Of a stretch of 64,000 bases of DNA, positions 20,751 through 31,813 are shown one piece after another. The first letter of the stretch is position 1, and every line of letters begins with the position of its first letter. The DNA is taken from contig JAJPHC010000060.1 in assembly GCA_021325515.1 (NCBI GenBank), positions 1 through 64,000 on the forward strand, written 5' to 3'. A model generated the notes under the pieces. That model did not search any database and was not told where the DNA came from. It saw nothing but the letters and a program-made list of their open reading frames with translations. This DNA comes from Acidobacteriota bacterium. GTDB lineage: Bacteria; Acidobacteriota; Thermoanaerobaculia; Gp7-AA8. A program made the translations under genes and the position numbers.

Positions 20751-21152
20751 GTGTCGATCATCGGAATCGATCTCGGCGCCAGGAGAATCGGAATCGCGGT
20801 TTCGGATTCAGGCATCATGGCGACGCCTCACTCAGTCATGCGCAACGAAGGAGACGTCATCGAAAAGCTCTCGCGCCTCGGCCAGCAGCTCGAGGCCGAG
20901 ACCTTCGTCGTCGGCGTACCGCGCCGTCCCGGTGCCAGCGAACAACGCTTCCACGACTTCGCGGAGCGGCTGCGGCAAAAGACCTGCAAAGAAGTCGTTC
21001 TTTGGGATGAATCGCTGAGCACGGTGGAGGCTGCCGAGCAGCTCCGAACCACAGGCCGCAGCCGGCGCGATTCCCAGCAAGTCATCGATATGCATGCAGC
21101 AGCAGTGATTCTTCAGTCGTGGCTCGATGATCGCGCCAGGAGGACGTCATAG
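20751..21152 (+). CDS. ruvX: putative pre-16S rRNA nuclease / Holliday junction resolvase YqgF
   Basis: A 133-residue RNase H-fold protein. It starts at a GTG (20751) with IIGIDLGARRIGIAVSD, carrying the first catalytic Asp; VVGVPRRPGASEQR, LWDESLSTVEAAEQL and the C-terminal DMHAAAVILQSWLD complete the YqgF pattern. Members process 16S rRNA precursors and are often annotated as resolvases. The end of the gene (AGGAGG, 21138-21143) doubles as a Shine-Dalgarno site for mltG. Confidence 0.93.
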   Translation: MSIIGIDLGARRIGIAVSDSGIMATPHSVMRNEGDVIEKLSRLGQQLEAETFVVGVPRRPGASEQRFHDFAERLRQKTCKEVVLWDESLSTVEAAEQLRTTGRSRRDSQQVIDMHAAAVILQSWLDDRARRTS

Positions 21153-21223: not shown

Positions 21224-22240
21224 GTGCTTCTTCTCATCGCCGGCGGCTGGTTCTTCATCCGCGCGCTCACCTCTCCCTACAAGGGCTTCGAGGAGCCGAA
21301 GAAGGATGTCGAAGTGCGCCACGGCCTCCGAACCTCGACGATTCTCCGCCACCTGCAGGCCGCGGGAGTGATTCGCGATCCCTACGTACCGCTCATCTAC
21401 ATGAAGCTTGTGCGGCGCAATGACTCGCTCAAAGCAGGCGTGTATGAATTCGACAAGCCGCTCTCCGCAGCACAGGTTCTCGAAAAACTGATTCGCGGCG
21501 ACGTCATCCTGCGAAGCGTCACCGTGCGCGAAGGACTCGACCGGTTTGCCGTCGCTCACCTCTTCGTCGCTGAGCGATTCGGCACGCAACAGCTCTGGGA
21601 CAAGCTGACCGCCGACACGGAATTGATTCGCGACATCGCTCCCGAAGCGAAGTCGCTCGAGGGATATCTCTTCCCCGACACCTACAAGTTCAACCCGGGA
21701 ACGCCGCCCGCGGTGATCGTCAAGGCGATGGTCGAGAACTTCCGGAAGCATTTCAGCGGAGAGATGGCGTACATCACGACCGGTCTCGACGTGCACAAGA
21801 CCGTGACGCTCGCCTCGATCGTGGAGACCGAGGCGAAGCTGCCGGCGGAGAGGCCGCTGGTGGCTGCGGTGTACCTCAACCGGCTCCAGCGCCACATGCT
21901 TCTCGGTGCGGATCCAACGGTCATCTACGCGCTGAAGCTCGCCGGCCGGTGGGATGGCAACATCCATAAGGCCGATCTGCAGATCGAGTCGCCGTACAAC
22001 ACCTATCGCTTCCCCGGCCTGCCGCCGGGTCCGATCGCGAATCCCGGAATCGCCTCGCTTCGCGCGGCGGCTGCACCTGCCTCGACGGGCTATCTCTATT
22101 TCGTCGCACGCCACGATGGCTCCCACGCCTTCTCCTCGACCCTCGCCGAGCACAACAAAAACGTCGAGATCTATCAGCGGCAGTGGTATCGGGACCGGCA
22201 GCAGGCAACAGGCACCGGGCAGCAGGGCGGAACGCCGTAA
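21224..22240 (+). CDS. mltG: endolytic murein transglycosylase MltG
   Basis: MltG is an inner-membrane lytic transglycosylase that cuts nascent peptidoglycan. The coordinates use the first canonical in-frame start (GTG 21224; 338 residues), but this truncates the membrane helix (TILLFGVLLLIAGGWFFIRAL). A better biological start is the ATA at 21149, five bases after the perfect AGGAGG at 21138-21143 and overlapping the ruvX TAG; it adds a basic leader typical of the family. Core motifs are EGLDRFAVA, LEGYLFPDTYKF, the catalytic region LASIVETEAKLPAERP with VYLNRL, LGADPTVIYAL, and YNTYRFPGLPPGPIANPG. The C-terminal tail is encoded by CAGCAGGCAACAGG-type repeat DNA. Confidence 0.93.
   Translation: MLLLIAGGWFFIRALTSPYKGFEEPKKDVEVRHGLRTSTILRHLQAAGVIRDPYVPLIYMKLVRRNDSLKAGVYEFDKPLSAAQVLEKLIRGDVILRSVTVREGLDRFAVAHLFVAERFGTQQLWDKLTADTELIRDIAPEAKSLEGYLFPDTYKFNPGTPPAVIVKAMVENFRKHFSGEMAYITTGLDVHKTVTLASIVETEAKLPAERPLVAAVYLNRLQRHMLLGADPTVIYALKLAGRWDGNIHKADLQIESPYNTYRFPGLPPGPIANPGIASLRAAAAPASTGYLYFVARHDGSHAFSSTLAEHNKNVEIYQRQWYRDRQQATGTGQQGGTP
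22195..22231. repeat. CAGGCAG/GGCAACA heptamer repeat inside the mltG 3' end
   Basis: Direct units of about 7 bases (GGCAGCAGGCAACAGGCACC...) encode the odd MltG tail RDRQQATGTGQQGGTP. They belong to the same family as the repeats at 2634-2712 and 34242-34292. A short complementary stretch (CCCTGTTGCC, about 22270-22279) lies downstream, so the transcript could fold past the stop codon. Confidence 0.6.
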
Positions 22241-22339: not shown

Positions 22340-24241
22340 ATGGCCGCGAAGAACAAGCCGTACGAACAGTTCGGTCAGTACATACTCTTCAAGAAACTCG
22401 AGAGTGATCCCCTGGGAGAGCTCTGGCGCGCGGGGCGAATCGACGGTAGCCAGCTCGGGCCCATCGTCGCACTGCGCAAGTTGACGGGCGGCGATCGCGC
22501 AGCATTGACGCAGAGCGTGGCCGTCGCGCACAACATCGTTCCGCAGCTCACCGGCGTGACGTTTGCGCGCAATCAGGTGATCGACGTCGCGGGAGAGATT
22601 CCGTACATCGCTCACGACTACGCGGGCGGCCGTTCGCTGCGGCACATCATGAATCGCGCGCGCGGGGGGCAGGGACTCACCCCGAATCCTCTGCCGCTCG
22701 ATCAGGCGATTGTGATCGCGGAGAGAGTGGCGCTATGCCTCGCGACGACGGCCGAGCTGCGCAACGGCGAAGGAGCGCGGCTCGCACATGGCGCACTCAT
22801 TCCGCAGTTCATCTGGATCGATGATGGTGGCGAGATTCGCGTTGCCGGTCAGCAGCTTGGGCGCGGCCTCGTCGCGTCATTCAAGGATGCGAAAGTCTCC
22901 AACGACATCGGCCGCTATTTCCCGCCCGAGTACCGCAACTCGGGGGAGACGACCAAGACCACCGATATCTTCTCCATGGGTGCGATCCTCTATCTGCTGG
23001 TGACAGGAGTCGAGCCGCCGGACGCGGTCACCAGCAGCGCCTTCGCGCAGACGGTCGGCGCGGCGCGTACTGCGAGCGGCTCGCCGCTTCCCGATGACAT
23101 CCGCACGATTCTGACGAAGTCGCTCGATCCAGATCCGAATGGCCGGTACGCGTCGATGAGCGACATGAAGCAGGCCATCGCCGCGCTCGCCGCGAGCGGC
23201 AAGTATTCGGCGACGACGTTCAACCTCGCGTTCTATCTCAGCAACCTGCTGAAGAAGGAGATGGAGAGCGAGGCGATCGATCGCGACAAGGAATCGAAGG
23301 TCAATGTCGCAGCGTATGTCGAAGCGCCGGCGGCAGCCGCGCCGCGCGCTGCCGCTCCCGCCGAAGCAGCGCGTCCGCTGCACGAAACGCCGATGTTCGG
23401 CTCGATGACGGAACAACCGAAGAAGAGCAAGGCACCGCTCGCGATCGCTGCGGCCGTGCTCGTCGCAGCAGGCATCGGCGGCGCCGTCTTCATGACGAGC
23501 AGGAAGGCGGCTCCGGCGCAGGCGAAACCTGTGCAGGCAGCGGCCATTCCGGCCGCGCCGAAACCAAAGATCGAACTGCAGCCCGTCGTCGCCCAGGCGT
23601 CGACCTCCACCGCTCCGGCGACATCGACGGCCGATCAGCAGAAGGCCTTCGAAGATGCCGTCAAAGCGAAATACCAGGAAGAGCTGATGAAACTGCAGGC
23701 CGACTACACGAAGCGCCTGCAGCAGTCGCAATCCAAGAACGCACCGTTGCCTGCCGCGGCCGCCGCGCCTGCTCCCGCAACTCCGGCGCCGGCCTCCGAC
23801 GACAAGACACCATCCGCCGCGGCGCTCGACGCCCAGCGGCAGCCCGCTCCGCAACCGGCGGCATCGCAGCCTGCGGCGCAGCCGGCGGTCGCAGCAGCCC
23901 AACCAGCCGTTGCAGCACCGGTCACCGCACAGGTGGCGACGGTTCGTGAAGGCGATGTCATCGACGTCAACGAGCTCGATGCCGTGCCGCGCGCCCTCAC
24001 CGTGATCCGCCCCGTCTACTCCCCCATCGCACAAAGGCAGCGGATCGAAGGAACTGTCCTCCTCACCGCACTGATCTCGGAGACCGGTCAGGTGATGGAC
24101 GTCAAGGTCCTCAAGGGTGTCGGCTTCGGCCTCGATGAAGCCGCGACCCGAGCCATGCGCAGCACCCGCTTCTCCCCCGGAATGAAGGACGGGAAGCATG
24201 TGAAGACCTGGTTCCCGCAATCGATCACGTTCAAGCTATAG
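22340..24241 (+). CDS. membrane-anchored pseudokinase with C-terminal TonB-type domain
   Basis: A 633-residue fusion. Residues about 10-270 follow the Ser/Thr kinase fold: the VAxK position reads VALRK (Arg46), the HRD-x-K-x-x-N loop reads HGALIPQFI (150-158), the DFG region reads RVAGQQLG, yet PPEY and DIFSMGAILYLLVTG are kept. Both catalytic Asp residues are missing, so it is probably an inactive pseudokinase. A transmembrane helix lies at about 371-391, then a long Ala/Pro/Gln linker, and a TonB C-terminal domain at about 545-633 (VIRPVYSPIAQRQRIEGTVLLTALI, VLKGVGFGLDEAATRAMRSTRFSPG). The role may be linking a cytosolic binding signal to an envelope partner; this is inference. Confidence 0.8.
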   Translation: MAAKNKPYEQFGQYILFKKLESDPLGELWRAGRIDGSQLGPIVALRKLTGGDRAALTQSVAVAHNIVPQLTGVTFARNQVIDVAGEIPYIAHDYAGGRSLRHIMNRARGGQGLTPNPLPLDQAIVIAERVALCLATTAELRNGEGARLAHGALIPQFIWIDDGGEIRVAGQQLGRGLVASFKDAKVSNDIGRYFPPEYRNSGETTKTTDIFSMGAILYLLVTGVEPPDAVTSSAFAQTVGAARTASGSPLPDDIRTILTKSLDPDPNGRYASMSDMKQAIAALAASGKYSATTFNLAFYLSNLLKKEMESEAIDRDKESKVNVAAYVEAPAAAAPRAAAPAEAARPLHETPMFGSMTEQPKKSKAPLAIAAAVLVAAGIGGAVFMTSRKAAPAQAKPVQAAAIPAAPKPKIELQPVVAQASTSTAPATSTADQQKAFEDAVKAKYQEELMKLQADYTKRLQQSQSKNAPLPAAAAAPAPATPAPASDDKTPSAAALDAQRQPAPQPAASQPAAQPAVAAAQPAVAAPVTAQVATVREGDVIDVNELDAVPRALTVIRPVYSPIAQRQRIEGTVLLTALISETGQVMDVKVLKGVGFGLDEAATRAMRSTRFSPGMKDGKHVKTWFPQSITFKL

Positions 24242-24245
24242 AAGC

Positions 24246-24325
24246 AGTGACGAGTGATGAGTGACGAGTGATGAGTAAAGACTCTTCACTCTTCACTCTT
24301 CACTCTTCACTCTTCACTCTTCACT
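24246..24325. repeat. inverted heptamer repeats between convergent genes
   Basis: The left arm has about four GTGAYGA units (GTGACGAGTGATGAG...) and the right arm about seven CTTCACT units up to the minus-strand gene. The arms are complementary at six of every seven positions around an AAAG loop. The array sits between the pseudokinase gene and the convergent GT39-like gene and would give a long imperfect hairpin on either strand; probable bidirectional terminator. Confidence 0.75.
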
Positions 24326-25961
24326 GCCCCGCGCCGCACTCTATGCCGTTCAGGCGCAAGCCCAGCTCGCGAGGATCGCCCGCGTTCTGCACGACACGAT
24401 CGGTCTCGATCACGAGCTCGCGCGGCGATTGCACCGCGTAGGTCCGCGGAAACTCCGATGACGCGGGCAGGCGGTCGAGGCGGCGCCCGTCGGCGAACAT
24501 CGTGATCGACGCGGTCCGATCGGGAGCATAGAAGTCGATCGAGAGCGACCGGCACGGAGCCGTGATCGTGATCCGCGATCGCGATCTCATCCAGCGCCAG
24601 ACTTCCTTCCGATCGGACTCCATCCCATACCAGCCGTCGCCGAAGATGAACGGCGAGACCGCCGGCGATATGGACACTTCGAAGTAGCGCCGCCGCGCAA
24701 GATTCCAGAGATGCCCATGCAGGCGTGAGAACGTGATGACACCTCTTCCCTCGCGGAGAAGCACGTCTCCATCTGCCGCGCTCCAGACTCCTGTTCGCAG
24801 AGTCTTCTCCGGCGCCAGCACCTCCGCGAATGCCGTCAGCCCGGGCTCCGCGCACACCGCACCGGTCGTATGTTCCCGCAGCCACATCGCGGCGGCGAAA
24901 GGCGGCGATACGGTCGAATGCACGATCTGAAGCGCAGGCCAGGTCCAGACGATCATCAGCCCCACGTAGATCGCGGCAAACGCGTATCGGCCCCGGCGTC
25001 CCATGGCCGCGAGTCCTTCGGCTGCCAGCATCGCGAAGAGCGGCGCATAGCCGACTGCGAAACGGCTCACGCTGAAGCGGTCGAGCATCAGCCACGCGAT
25101 CAGACAGAAGGGCCCGAACGCAGCCAGCGCCATGAGCGCCGCCCGCCGGTGCCGGAGCAGCGCGACGGCCGCCAGCACGGACGTCACGGCATTGATCAAC
25201 TGCGCCCGATACGGCCTGATGAAGAAATCGTCGACGAGGTGCGTCAGTGGAGGGCGATTCGGACTCGTCCAGGCATCGACGCGCGAAAGGTATTCGCGGT
25301 GCCGCCTCAGCGCCTCGGCGAACACAGCCCAACCACCCGTTGCAGCAATCGCAGCCCCATAGCTCGCGACCACGATCGACGCGGTGAGAAGGACCGGTCC
25401 GATCGCGCGCATGCGGTGGCGAGCGATGGCCAGCAGGAACGGCACGGCGACGATGACGAGGTTCTGCGGCCGGATGCCGATCGCGATTCCGGCCGCGATT
25501 GCACCGCCGTACATCGCCAGACGTTCGCTCCGCAACAGCAGCGCGATCGCGATGACGACTGCGGTCATCGAAGGCACGTCGCTCAGCGCCGTCCCGCCGT
25601 AGAACCAGACGTTCGGGAAAAATGCCAGCACGATGCCCGCCGTGAGCGCCGTCGCAAACTCGGCACCTGCGGCGAGCGCGAACGCGGTCATCGCCGGCAC
25701 GATCAGCACCGCTGCCGCGAGACTCACTGCCTGCAACGCGTGAAACGAGTCAAGACCGGCGATCTGCAGCAGCTTCGCCGCGCCGATGAACAGCGGAAAT
25801 CCGGGCGGATGCGGATGGTGCGCCGCGACATCAAAATGACGCAGCGCGAGAATGAACTGCGCCTCGTCCCAATCCCAGAACGTGCGGGACAACGCCGGCC
25901 ATCGCGATACAGCCACGATCGCCGTCGCGATCGCAACCGCAAGACCCTGCCGTCGGGTCAC
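24321..25961 (-). CDS. GT39/PMT-like polytopic glycosyltransferase
   Basis: A 546-residue GT-C protein. The first loop reads TFWDWDEAQFILALRHFDVAAH and HPHPPGFPLFIG: the WDWDE acidic motif and HHPHPPG are typical of PMT_2/GT39 enzymes, which move a sugar from polyprenyl phosphate to a protein or glycan outside the cytosol. IGIRPQNLVIV follows a later helix, and the last about 180 residues form a soluble domain. I chose the GTG at 25961, which overlaps the upstream stop (GTGA) and follows GGAGA; an in-frame GTG at 25982 is the alternative. It is the second gene of a tandem pair. Confidence 0.83.
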   Translation of the reverse strand: MTRRQGLAVAIATAIVAVSRWPALSRTFWDWDEAQFILALRHFDVAAHHPHPPGFPLFIGAAKLLQIAGLDSFHALQAVSLAAAVLIVPAMTAFALAAGAEFATALTAGIVLAFFPNVWFYGGTALSDVPSMTAVVIAIALLLRSERLAMYGGAIAAGIAIGIRPQNLVIVAVPFLLAIARHRMRAIGPVLLTASIVVASYGAAIAATGGWAVFAEALRRHREYLSRVDAWTSPNRPPLTHLVDDFFIRPYRAQLINAVTSVLAAVALLRHRRAALMALAAFGPFCLIAWLMLDRFSVSRFAVGYAPLFAMLAAEGLAAMGRRGRYAFAAIYVGLMIVWTWPALQIVHSTVSPPFAAAMWLREHTTGAVCAEPGLTAFAEVLAPEKTLRTGVWSAADGDVLLREGRGVITFSRLHGHLWNLARRRYFEVSISPAVSPFIFGDGWYGMESDRKEVWRWMRSRSRITITAPCRSLSIDFYAPDRTASITMFADGRRLDRLPASSEFPRTYAVQSPRELVIETDRVVQNAGDPRELGLRLNGIECGAGQ

Positions 25962-27760
25962 TGTGTCTCCGCCGGACGCCACGACAACGTCAGCAACTGC
26001 AGCCCGAGATCGCGAGCATCCCCGCCCTTGTGCAGCGCGGACGGATTCACGACTTCATCGACGTCGATCGTGACCTCGTTGCGCACGCCGTTGCGCGAAG
26101 GGACGACCCAGCGTTTTTCCATCGCCGCATCGGCGGAAAACCGTTCGATCATCACGCCATTGAACATGATGGTAATCACCGGCTTCCTCGGTTCCGAGTC
26201 GAGAGGAACGTTGAACTTCATCGACAGCTCACCGTTTCCTCCAATCGCCGGAACGTACAGCGTCGAGTGCCGCCCCATCCAGCGCCACGCAGACGCCGGA
26301 TCGCCTTCCTGGCCATACCATCCATCGGCGAACGCGACCGACGAGCTCAAGGGGCGGACGAAGACATCGAAGTACCGCTTGCGCGAGATCGACCAGAGGT
26401 GACCCCGAGGCCGTGTGAAATTGAGTCCGTCCTTCGCATTCGTGACGCCTTCGCTGATCAGCCAGCAGTGACTCACATCTCCCAGCGACAGCGGCGAAAA
26501 GTTGTCTACGACTGCCACCTGCCGGTAGTCCTTCAGCAGATACTCCGCCCACGGCCCCATGCTTCCGTGAACGTAGAGCGTCGTCGTTGCGCGATCGAGA
26601 TGCCGGTGAATCCAGCGTTCCGCTTCAATGACCGGCGCGTCGTGAACGCGCACTTCACGCAGCGCAGAAGCAGACCATCGGATGAGACGCGTCACGATGA
26701 GCGCGCAGACGAGGCATTGCAATGCGATCGCGGCAATCGCTGAGCGCCGCTCGACAGCAGCAGCGATCCAGCGCAAACCCTCCGCACAACAGATCATGAG
26801 CAATGCCATCGACGTGGTTGCATAACGCCCGCCGGCCTCCGTGTTCAACATGAACATCGAGAAGAGAACGAAAGGGCCGAAGATCACCAGAGCCTCTCGC
26901 ACTGGCCGGCGGAATCTCAGTAAGCCGGCGAGCGCGATGGCCGCGATGATCCCGGAGATCCTTCCCGCCTCGTACGGATCGAGCAGCATCGCCCAGTATG
27001 TGCGATACCAGACGGGCCGCTCGGGATTCATGTACGAATCGACCTTCATCACATATTCGCCATGCATCTTCACGGCGGTCCGATAAGCATCGAAGCCGGT
27101 CATCAGCGCCGCGCCGAAGAAAAATCCCCCGACCACGAGCACGAGAATCGCCGCACCGAAAATCGGATCGAGCTTCCGCTCTTTCCACCTCGGCCACGAT
27201 GCCGCGAGCCAGGGATAAATGCCGAGGAGGACGTTCTGCGGCCGCATGACGCAGGCCGCGGCCATCAGAACGCAGCCTGCGAAATACGCAGCGCGGCTTC
27301 TCCTCCCACGCAGCAGCAGTGCGATCCCGAACAGCAGCATCGCCAGCGCCGGGATGTCGCTGAACGCCGTTCCGCCGTAGAACCAGATGTTCGGCGCGAA
27401 GCACGTCAGGAGTGCCGCGATCATCGCCGGCACTGCTTCCATCCGCAGCTCGCGGGCGACGAAGTAGACGCCGGGAAAGATCGTCATCGAACAGAGGAGA
27501 TTGATGGCGCGCAGCGCGCGGAAGTCGTCGTGCACGAAGAGGCGGAAGAAACGGCCGAGAACGACGTAGAGCGGGAATCCGGGCGGATGAGGATGATGCG
27601 CCGCGACATTGAAGTCGTGCAGCGACAGGCAGAAGAGCGTCTCATCCCACTCCCAGAGGCTGTGCGCGGCAGCCAGCAGGCGAGTGAGAGCGACAGCGAG
27701 GGCGAGCGTGACGAAGAGGAGTCGGGTCTGGCGAGCGGACAAGCGGCACCATTCTCGCAA
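25958..27760 (-). CDS. GT39/PMT-like polytopic glycosyltransferase
   Basis: A 600-residue paralog of the next gene: SLWEWDETLFCLSLHDFNV followed by AAHHPHPPGFPLYVVLG, a CVMRPQNVLLG motif, about ten membrane helices and a C-terminal soluble domain of about 180 residues. The two proteins share the same plan and their genes overlap by 4 bases, so they arose by tandem duplication and probably act in the same pathway on different sugars or acceptors. No ATG lies near the N-terminus; the coordinates use a TTG at 27760, with another TTG at 27742. It is divergent from the topoisomerase gene with only 14 bases between. Confidence 0.83.
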   Translation of the reverse strand: MREWCRLSARQTRLLFVTLALAVALTRLLAAAHSLWEWDETLFCLSLHDFNVAAHHPHPPGFPLYVVLGRFFRLFVHDDFRALRAINLLCSMTIFPGVYFVARELRMEAVPAMIAALLTCFAPNIWFYGGTAFSDIPALAMLLFGIALLLRGRRSRAAYFAGCVLMAAACVMRPQNVLLGIYPWLAASWPRWKERKLDPIFGAAILVLVVGGFFFGAALMTGFDAYRTAVKMHGEYVMKVDSYMNPERPVWYRTYWAMLLDPYEAGRISGIIAAIALAGLLRFRRPVREALVIFGPFVLFSMFMLNTEAGGRYATTSMALLMICCAEGLRWIAAAVERRSAIAAIALQCLVCALIVTRLIRWSASALREVRVHDAPVIEAERWIHRHLDRATTTLYVHGSMGPWAEYLLKDYRQVAVVDNFSPLSLGDVSHCWLISEGVTNAKDGLNFTRPRGHLWSISRKRYFDVFVRPLSSSVAFADGWYGQEGDPASAWRWMGRHSTLYVPAIGGNGELSMKFNVPLDSEPRKPVITIMFNGVMIERFSADAAMEKRWVVPSRNGVRNEVTIDVDEVVNPSALHKGGDARDLGLQLLTLSWRPAETQ

Positions 27761-28879: not shown

Positions 28880-31813
28880 CTAGAACGTCTCGCCGATCCA
28901 GAACTCCGTCTTCGTCTTGCCCACCGTGTGCTTGCCATCGAAGCGGCGTGCAAAGTCCCAGTGCAGTTCCAGGCCGAGGAAGTTGAACGAGAACCCGTAT
29001 CCGAGTGAGGCCTTGCCGTCGACCAGGCGATGGTTCTGCGCGAAGTTGAACGGTTGTCCCTTGAAGTTCGCCGCGCCGATGTCGAAGAAGAGATTTCCGC
29101 GCACCTGCTGGAAGACCATGATCGGCGTGGCCAGCACATCGACCAGCGGGAATCGGTACTCGAAATTCGCAAACGCGGCTCGCGTTCCGATCAGCGAACG
29201 GAAGTCATAGCCGCGCAGCGTGTTCAGTCCGCCGAAGTAGTAGAAGTTCGGCAGATTGCCGGTCGAATAGCCTGCAAAGAGGCGCGCGGCGAGCAGCGAG
29301 CGCGACGTCACCTGCACGTACTTGCGCGCGTCGACCGTGACGTCCTGCGACAGCGTGCCGTGGTTCTTCATGTCGGGCGCATAGGTGAAGGACAGATCGT
29401 AGCGATGTCCCGCGATCGGGCCGAACTGGCGGAAGATCGTCGTGTCGCCGCTGAAGTCGGAGGTGACCAGTGGGAAGTTGTCGCGGCGATTGAAGATCGT
29501 GATACCGACGGTTCCGTCGCTCAGCGGCACCAGCGTCGGATAGTTGATCTCGCGGCTCTCGTATCCGCTGCCGACATCGATGCGGTGATAACGCGTGAAG
29601 GGATAGCTGATCAGGCCGATCGCACCGGTCTCGCGATAGATCTGATGCCGGTCGAGCGTGAACGAATCCTGAGCAGAGGTCGAATAGAACGAGCGGTTGT
29701 CGAAGACACGGACGCCCCAGTTCATCCGGTGCTGCAGGTCGAAATAGAGGAAGTCGAAGTTCGAGAACGACGAAACCGAATCGAGAGACGCGATGAAACG
29801 CCGCCCGCCGAGCATGTCGCTCATGTAGATGACGGAGCGCGACACGATCAACTGATCGGAGCTGATGCCTGCATTGACTTCGACATCATCGACGAACAGC
29901 TTGCGGCTGCGCGCGGACTCGATCTTCTCCGGATCGATCGCCACCTCCACCGGCGGCTGGAACGCCGCCCGCGCCTCGGCCTGCAGCGGCGCGGATGGCA
30001 GCGCAATCTTCTCCGCCGGGTGCAACGGCTTGTCAGTCGGCGTCGAGAAAAGCTGCCAGCGATGTTTGTAGTACGAGGAGAAAACCATCTTCTCCTTGTT
30101 GTTCGTGCCGGTGAAGACCACCGGAGTGAAGCAGCCGCCCACGACATCGGTGTACTGGATGACGTCGCCCGTCTCGAGATTCAGCGAGTAGATGTTGTAG
30201 GCGGCGAAGTTCGTCGGATCGGGAGGCGGCGTATCGCCCTGGCGCTTTGCCTTGTCCTCCGCAGCCTCCAGGATCCTCGATGCCTCTTCGATATTTCTTC
30301 CCGTCTGTTTGTCCGATGAGAAGAAGATGCGTTTCCCGTCCGGAGCGAAGTAGGCGTCGATGTCGTTCCACTGTCCCGTCGTGAGCTGATAGCGCTCCGA
30401 GGGATTCTCCAGATTCAGCTTGAAGAGCTTCGCGTAACCGCCGACGACCGAGGAGTAGACGAGCCACTTGCCATCGCGCGAGAACACGGGAGAGGCGTCG
30501 AAGAACTTGTCGTTCGTCAGATTCGTGACTGCGCCGCTTTCGAGATCGAAGAGGAAGATGTCGGGCTGGTTGCCGAGGAATCCGGAGAACGCGATCTTGC
30601 GGCCGTCGGGTGAATAGGCCGGGTTGAGCTGCTGCTCGACCTTCATCGGAATCGACTTGATCAGCGTGCCGGTCAGCGGATGAATGATGAGCAGGTTGCG
30701 GCCGCGCTCCTTCTTCGCGAACACCGCGATCTGATCGCCATTCGGCGCCCACGCGATGTCGCGCCCCATCACCGGCCCCACCGTGAACGCCTGCACGATC
30801 GGATATTCGTATTTGCTGGTGAATCCCGGCGTCAGGTTCTTCAGCAGTTTCCTCTCCGGGATGTTGAAGACGGCGATGTCGACGTCGTCGTTGTAGTCGG
30901 TGAAGCCGGCCAGAAGATCGCCGGACGGCGAAGGCACGGGCGAGATCTCGTCGCTCGGAATCTCCGGGCGGATCTTGAACGGGTCGCCGTACTCGATCGG
31001 CTCACCCTTGGCGACGAGCGCCGGCAGATACTGCTTGCGCAGCCACGTCCGGAAGTGCGTGTCGAATTCGTCGGGAGCGACATCGAACGCGCGCTTCAAC
31101 GCCTTGTCGACGGAGCTGCCGAGCGTGTTTCGATATTCGTAGATGAAGTCGCGGATCCCCTCCCATCCGTACTTCGCCTGGATGTACTTGAACACCGCAT
31201 GTCCGAATCGATATGCGAAATAGCCCTGCGGATTCTTGGTGATCGCCGGGATGTCGTCGTTGACCACCGCATCGCGAAGCACCATGCGGTCCTTCGAGTC
31301 CTCATCGCTGGCCATGAACGACGCGAGGCCTTCCATCAGCCACGTCGGCGGATTCGCCGTCAGCGTCTTGCCGAGTTTCCCCTGAAAGAGAATTTCGTAC
31401 TCGAAGATGTGCGTCAGCTCGTGCTGGATGACCTGCGCGTTCTTCTCATCCGTGTTGTCGATCGGCACGACCATGCGGTTGCGCGCCGGCTCCGCGAATG
31501 CGCCGACCCCTTCCGGGATGAAGTTGAGATCGACGTTGGTCTGTTCGAACGCCGAGTGCGTCGCGTAGAAGATGAGCGGGATCTTCTTCGAGATCTGGTA
31601 GTTGAACTTGCGCGAGAGATCGTCGTACGCACTCTCGGCGGCATCGGCGACCTTCTGCAGCGACGGCTTCTCTTCGTCGTAGAAGTACACGTCGAAATGC
31701 GTGGAGTGGTAGATGTTCCAGTTGAAGCGGTCGTAAACGATCTTGTTCTGACCAAACGGATAGGCGGGCACAGCCGCGAGGACAATGACAAACAGCGCGA
31801 TGAGACGCTTCAC
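28880..31813 (-). CDS. secreted metallopeptidase / beta-propeller / outer-membrane beta-barrel fusion
   Basis: A 977-residue protein with three parts. After a signal peptide (1 to about 19) comes a gluzincin-type domain with HELTHIFEYE (HExxH at 131-135) and WLMEGLASF (Glu161). Residues about 280-600 carry TolB/PD40-like propeller repeats (SPSGDLLAGFTDY, NPAYSPDGRKIAFSG, PVFSRDGKWLVYSS). The C-terminal about 330 residues look like an Omp85/surface-antigen barrel, with YYFGGLNTLRGYDFRSLIG near the end and a terminal aromatic Phe (WIGETF). It should sit in the outer membrane with protease and propeller in the periplasm or outside. It is the last gene of a three-gene minus-strand group. Confidence 0.85.
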   Translation of the reverse strand: MKRLIALFVIVLAAVPAYPFGQNKIVYDRFNWNIYHSTHFDVYFYDEEKPSLQKVADAAESAYDDLSRKFNYQISKKIPLIFYATHSAFEQTNVDLNFIPEGVGAFAEPARNRMVVPIDNTDEKNAQVIQHELTHIFEYEILFQGKLGKTLTANPPTWLMEGLASFMASDEDSKDRMVLRDAVVNDDIPAITKNPQGYFAYRFGHAVFKYIQAKYGWEGIRDFIYEYRNTLGSSVDKALKRAFDVAPDEFDTHFRTWLRKQYLPALVAKGEPIEYGDPFKIRPEIPSDEISPVPSPSGDLLAGFTDYNDDVDIAVFNIPERKLLKNLTPGFTSKYEYPIVQAFTVGPVMGRDIAWAPNGDQIAVFAKKERGRNLLIIHPLTGTLIKSIPMKVEQQLNPAYSPDGRKIAFSGFLGNQPDIFLFDLESGAVTNLTNDKFFDASPVFSRDGKWLVYSSVVGGYAKLFKLNLENPSERYQLTTGQWNDIDAYFAPDGKRIFFSSDKQTGRNIEEASRILEAAEDKAKRQGDTPPPDPTNFAAYNIYSLNLETGDVIQYTDVVGGCFTPVVFTGTNNKEKMVFSSYYKHRWQLFSTPTDKPLHPAEKIALPSAPLQAEARAAFQPPVEVAIDPEKIESARSRKLFVDDVEVNAGISSDQLIVSRSVIYMSDMLGGRRFIASLDSVSSFSNFDFLYFDLQHRMNWGVRVFDNRSFYSTSAQDSFTLDRHQIYRETGAIGLISYPFTRYHRIDVGSGYESREINYPTLVPLSDGTVGITIFNRRDNFPLVTSDFSGDTTIFRQFGPIAGHRYDLSFTYAPDMKNHGTLSQDVTVDARKYVQVTSRSLLAARLFAGYSTGNLPNFYYFGGLNTLRGYDFRSLIGTRAAFANFEYRFPLVDVLATPIMVFQQVRGNLFFDIGAANFKGQPFNFAQNHRLVDGKASLGYGFSFNFLGLELHWDFARRFDGKHTVGKTKTEFWIGETF

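Follow-up and report, generated by a model that had tools for sequence, protein, structure and literature searches.

What might a protein kinase domain that has lost its catalytic residues do when it is joined, through a membrane helix and a long linker, to the C-terminal domain of TonB? The question is raised by a gene at 22340-24241 (+) in the window, the 64,000-nucleotide stretch of an Acidobacteriota contig (class Thermoanaerobaculia) analysed here. The gene is one ATG-started frame of 633 amino acids plus a stop, its start codon lying 99 bases past the stop of mltG, and it has orthologues across the class. The TonB_C domain at residues 557-633 (24008..24238, +) is matched by Pfam PF03544 with an E value of 3.5e-19 and 69.5 bits against a cut-off of 24.6. 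The kinase domain (residues about 9-286; 22364..23197, +) is matched by PF07714 at residues 67-270 with an E value of 2.4e-5, barely above the cut-off, and its PF00069 score falls under that family's cut-off, the sole case among 67 Pkinase matches in its own genome. Pfam finds a kinase and a TonB_C domain in this protein and nothing else, with neither FHA nor PASTA domains, and its score against NF033483, the PASTA Ser/Thr kinase model, is 62.5 bits where the cut-off is 450.

The kinase fold anticipated by the original prediction was nevertheless returned by structure modelling. AlphaFold2, run on residues 1-307 with an alignment of 40 homologues read from DNA, gave a mean pLDDT of 92.8 and a pTM of 0.92, with the N-lobe strands, helix C and a complete C-lobe in place. 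PknA, PknB, PknI and Stk1 were among the first matches of the model in a Foldseek search of the PDB, at probability 1.00. A bilobal protein kinase fold is thus predicted for the N-terminal domain with high confidence.

The loss of the active site was examined by aligning homologues against a profile built from 30 active kinases that this genome encodes. This confirmed that the VAIK lysine and the HRD and DFG aspartates are gone and that the APE glutamate and DxxSxG motif are kept; the three residues expected of an active Ser/Thr kinase are replaced here by Arg46, Ala152 and Gly170. Arg46 (22475..22477, +) stands at the VAIK lysine; of 41 class homologues aligned at this position, 37 have Arg and one has Lys. 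HGALIP (residues 150-155; 22787..22804, +) takes the place of HRDxKP, so that HRD reads H150-G-A, with Ala152 at the catalytic Asp, and the Asn that follows has become Phe. No active homologue emerged at this loop: the HRD aspartate is missing from every one of the 49 class homologues that align there, with Phe, Ala, Leu, Gly or Cys in its place, and the Asn after HRD is likewise replaced in all 49. At the DFG region, AGQQLG (residues 169-174; 22844..22861, +), Gly170 occupies the Asp position and is invariant in the 41-sequence alignment; across the 49 homologues the replacement is Gly in 48 and Tyr in one. The glycine loop reads E-x-D-x-x-G in this protein, with Asp at the middle Gly in most homologues, and the alpha-C Glu is mostly lost in the family. 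Retained are the APE glutamate (E197), its expected partner Arg269, and the DxxSxG aspartate (D209; Glu in a few homologues).

The degenerate site is itself conserved. His150, Gly151, Pro155 and Gly170 are invariant across the 41 sequences, giving the pattern H-G-x-x-x-P, and such conservation of replacement residues at a dead site indicates a maintained pseudokinase rather than a decaying gene; a replaced site with invariant residues of its own is what would be expected of a maintained non-catalytic domain. Judged by its residues, the domain probably no longer catalyses phosphotransfer, although it may still bind nucleotide or support an unusual catalysis, the VAIK lysine being kept in one aligned homologue.

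The remainder of the protein conforms to the proposed fusion, in which a membrane helix and an Ala/Pro linker lead to TonB_C, as seen in the PF03544 match, a hydropathy scan and a full-length AlphaFold2 model. In each of 44 homologues the scan found one hydrophobic helix past the kinase domain, placed at about 367-385 in this protein (23438..23494, +), and nothing strongly hydrophobic among residues 1-60. The full-length model has the kinase domain, helices to residue 318, a membrane helix at 371-383, a long periplasmic helix at 430-466 (23627..23737, +) that is possibly a coiled coil, low-confidence Ala/Pro linker stretches and a confident TonB_C domain, with pLDDT above 90 over most of 551-633. 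Since there is no signal peptide and Lys and Arg residues precede the helix, the likeliest arrangement has the kinase in the cytoplasm and TonB_C in the periplasm, which upholds by inference the topology first proposed; the numbers of Lys/Arg residues on either side of the helix, 2.4 before versus 2.1 after, are insufficient alone to fix it. Between the kinase domain and the membrane lies the best-conserved stretch of the protein, the juxta-kinase motif SGKYSATTFNLAFYL (residues 286-300; 23195..23239, +), which contains the conserved SPTTFNLAF, has conserved Thr residues at 292 and 293, and has an entropy of 0.85 bits versus 1.87 for the kinase domain. That conservation should peak at this point fits a coupling of the kinase and membrane parts.

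How widely the design occurs bears directly on its significance. The gene is present in about 50 of the 61 Thermoanaerobaculia genomes searched, with orthologues 43-66% identical within the family and about 30-37% identical across the class, levels that place the design beyond chance. A scan of contigs yielded two close relatives only, and the labels on close relatives' contigs read Thermoanaerobaculia and Acidobacteria; plasmid relatives were limited to distant kinase-like matches at about 25% identity. A profile search over 396 acidobacterial genomes, combined with examination of the DNA of 20 distant places, revealed this fusion in roughly ten more families of Acidobacteriota. Nearly all of the distant places have HG....P (or HN) at the catalytic loop, most have TTFN past the kinase, and 15 have a detectable TonB_C domain. 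A tree built from 113 kinase domains has one branch, with support of 100/100, that keeps all 60 pseudokinase domains together on the same side, consistent with a single origin; the tree is read without a known root, and several of its distant rows sit on long branches. Within Acidobacteriota, the phylum covered by our searches, pseudokinase-TonB_C proteins constitute an old, well-kept and apparently undescribed family. In one genome (G019) two tandem copies of the gene follow mltG (L050:544-2640 (+) and the next gene), the second lying far from the first in synteny clustering.

The genes around the pseudokinase offer a clue to function, at least in this class. In the window, ruvX (20751..21152, +; TIGR00250) is followed by mltG, encoding an endolytic transglycosylase (21224..22240, +; TIGR00247, E 8.8e-68), and then by the pseudokinase gene. 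This order recurs across the class: in 37 of 48 loci mltG is the gene directly upstream and shares the strand. ruvX precedes mltG, the matched parts of mltG and the pseudokinase are separated by a median of 142 bases, and in about ten genomes lptD is also a neighbour. The 11 exceptions comprise one adjacent mltG on the opposite strand, four loci with short or cut flanks or distant matches, and six loci from a single lineage, f10. Unlike the rest of the class, in which mltG is common, all six f10 genomes searched (G043, G037, G031, G058, G046 and G040; completeness at least 95%) lack a match to mltG (PF02618), yet they keep the pseudokinase gene, in some cases directly after ruvX, and this weakens the case for MltG as an obligate partner. 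In the loci examined from other classes mltG does not adjoin the gene, and the neighbours read from the sequences differ, GroEL/GroES-like or ATP-synthase-like genes for example, making the mltG link a feature of the class. A connection to type IV pili through pilT was also considered and set aside, as the adjacency is limited to close relatives (L118-L123) and does not extend to the rest of the class.

We propose, as a reading somewhat more probable than its negation, that the protein is bitopic in the inner membrane and acts as a non-catalytic scaffold or adaptor in the envelope of these bacteria. On the cytoplasmic side, the pseudokinase would serve as a binding platform, most likely for a protein of the Ser/Thr-kinase network or a cell-wall enzyme; its state would be relayed through the juxta-kinase helix and the single membrane helix to a flexible periplasmic arm, whose terminal TonB_C domain would bind an envelope partner. 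Fold prediction, residue loss, conservation, architecture and gene order are the computed elements of this proposal, and we infer the topology, the lack of catalysis, the partners, the direction of signalling and a role in the cell wall. In Thermoanaerobaculia the linked partner would probably belong to the peptidoglycan machinery, where MltG is the foremost candidate. MltG itself as the partner is a tentative suggestion that we consider less likely than not, and a gene placed beside mltG may simply share its promoter.

The presence of a genuine TonB_C domain raises a different reading, in which the protein is an ExbB/ExbD-driven transducer that powers TonB-dependent receptors and the pseudokinase acts as a cytoplasmic on/off or docking domain. 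ExbB and ExbD are encoded in the genome, a TonB-dependent receptor-like sequence (cluster 11) lies downstream in four class genomes, and the similarly built FHA-TonB_C protein GltG has been proposed to contact the ExbB-like AglR (PMC3169522). The search for a partner ExbB/ExbD suggested by the original prediction was unproductive, however: no exbB/exbD genes lie near the pseudokinase gene, and those found are on other contigs, the main sets (C45, C9 and C18) each having another TonB_C gene close by. Gene linkage of this kind is not strictly required of TonB energy transducers. In E. coli, Ser16 and His20 of SxxxH touch ExbB (PMC12215075), SxxxH being the ExbB-contacting part of the SHLS motif (PMC12215075; PMC12204202). 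The genome encodes five TonB-like proteins with SxxxH in their helix, whereas the motif is absent from the membrane helix of all 44 pseudokinase homologues. With linkage lacking and the motif missing, we rejected an ExbB/ExbD partnership deduced from gene neighbours, and a transducer of this type seems quite unlikely.

The kinase half of the protein invites two further explanations. It could act on a live kinase as activator, inhibitor or substrate, and the genome encodes a similarly built candidate, an unlinked protein with a receiver, an intact kinase, a membrane helix and TonB_C (C55:82283-; L056:2284-5193 (-)). This paralogue occurs in many class genomes, its relatives in the class keep their catalytic residues, and the pairing of a dead with a live kinase is a common principle. 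In genus g20 (14 class genomes) there is no match to a profile that detects both proteins, a joint absence that amounts to one event. In the kinase tree the paralogue groups with active kinases across the deepest branch, so the two are not a recent duplicate pair and the pseudokinase did not arise as a recent copy of its active counterpart. With the genes also unlinked, regulation of this paralogue or of another kinase appears unlikely. An atypical active enzyme, in which H-G-x-x-x-P and the Gly loop serve another chemistry, or a nucleotide-binding sensor, would account for the invariance of the replaced site. Some kinase-fold proteins that lack canonical residues are active, and metal-independent ATP binding has been raised for the DLHK pseudokinases (PMC12599244). 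Against this, most members have lost the VAIK Lys, alpha-C Glu, HRD Asp, the Asn and the DFG Asp altogether, and the glycine loop bears an Asp; we regard such an activity as improbable.

The plan of a cytoplasmic signalling domain, helix, linker and TonB_C is not confined to a single gene: other proteins of this genome follow it with an active kinase or with GGDEF. The GGDEF protein (C52:61337-; L007:1495-2760 (-)) has a membrane helix, a predicted helical linker and TonB_C, with E values of 4.6e-40 for PF00990 and 6.9e-19 for PF03544. Another protein (C5:1366-; L013:1357-2598 (-)) joins a zinc-ribbon-like CxxC...CxxC start to a membrane helix and TonB_C, a combination that recalls Myxococcus GltJ. 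The pseudokinase, GGDEF, zinc-ribbon and SH3 versions of TonB_C protein in this genome all lack SxxxH. The fusion described in the original prediction as unusual is real, but it is no single odd case, as the family is phylum-wide and its plan recurs; it may carry a signal or an anchor across the membrane, as that prediction proposed. It is possible, although we would put this below an even chance, that the family works across the phylum as a trans-membrane scaffold for signalling, with TonB_C as a generic output module in the periplasm that is attached to a dead kinase, a receiver and kinase, GGDEF or a zinc ribbon, and that it serves signalling between cytoplasm and cell wall, with neither transport nor a motor involved. 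Because several TonB_C proteins here carry cytoplasmic signalling domains and no motor motif, the habit of treating all TonB_C proteins as parts of ExbB-driven transport is open to question.

Bacterial Ser/Thr pseudokinases were divided into seven families, ActPs1-3, GLW, CP1, DYD and DLHK, in a 2025 review that mentions neither TonB nor Acidobacteria (PMC12599244). GLW is the nearest in build; its members, mainly from Proteobacteria, show GLW where HRD would stand and have a poly-Leu/Trp beta-3 (PMC12599244), whereas the acidobacterial family has H-G-x-x-x-P (H-G-(A/F/L)), Arg in beta-3 and TonB_C. CP1 and DLHK have no membrane region, in contrast to the one membrane helix of our 44 homologues, and ActPs1, ActPs2, ActPs3 and DYD are set apart by description, that is, by their reviewed taxonomy and fused domains (PMC12599244). 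On these comparisons the acidobacterial family appears distinct from each comparable family in residues, fused domain or membrane build. A precedent is MviN (MurJ-linked, ActPs3), whose pseudokinase is a scaffold in mycobacterial cell-wall control (PMC12599244): it too is a membrane-tied pseudokinase scaffold in cell-wall synthesis, but it is fused to a lipid II flippase, its extracytoplasmic part is not TonB_C, and PknB phosphorylation links it to FhaA. GltG (PglI), which belongs to the gliding machinery of Myxococcus xanthus, shares a length of about 640 amino acids, a cytoplasmic signalling domain, a membrane helix, a proline-rich periplasmic part and TonB_C, and differs in having a cytoplasmic FHA domain and working with the AglRQS motor (PMC3169522). 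E. coli TonB also ends a periplasm-spanning proline-rich linker with TonB_C; the pseudokinase protein differs in its large cytoplasmic domain, a helix that is not N-terminal, and the absence of SxxxH and of adjoining exbB/exbD. The PASTA kinases PknB, StkP and IreK likewise combine a cytoplasmic kinase fold, a single membrane helix and an envelope-facing extracytoplasmic domain, but they are catalytically active and have PASTA repeats in place of TonB_C. Along with MviN and GltG, precedents for the proposed scaffold are the phosphorylation of MltG by IreK (PMC12369325) and the shaping of septal peptidoglycan by the TonB-like SjdR (PMC8262864).

We found no description in the literature of a pseudokinase or kinase paired with TonB, although a paper or domain-database listing may exist elsewhere. 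What is new here, in our judgement, is that a family of pseudokinases has acquired a fusion partner of a new kind, is widely distributed and keeps steady gene neighbours. A function is known for few bacterial pseudokinases, and pseudokinase-TonB_C is not among the families already described; with its phylum-wide distribution, its conserved dead site and, in one class, its steady linkage to the gene of a cell-wall enzyme, the family is a clear target for studies of bacterial pseudokinase function.

Downstream of the gene, the window holds several other features. Short tandem repeats at 24245-24325, GTGATGAGTGACGAGTGATGAGT and then CTTCACT repeats, lie between the pseudokinase gene and the next gene. 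Two adjacent mannosyltransferase-like proteins (24321-25982 and 25958-27760 (-)) belong to one similarity cluster and are probably a tandem duplicate, and at 28880-31813 (-) a 976-amino-acid protein combines a Peptidase_MA-like domain, TolB-like propeller repeats and an Omp85 barrel.
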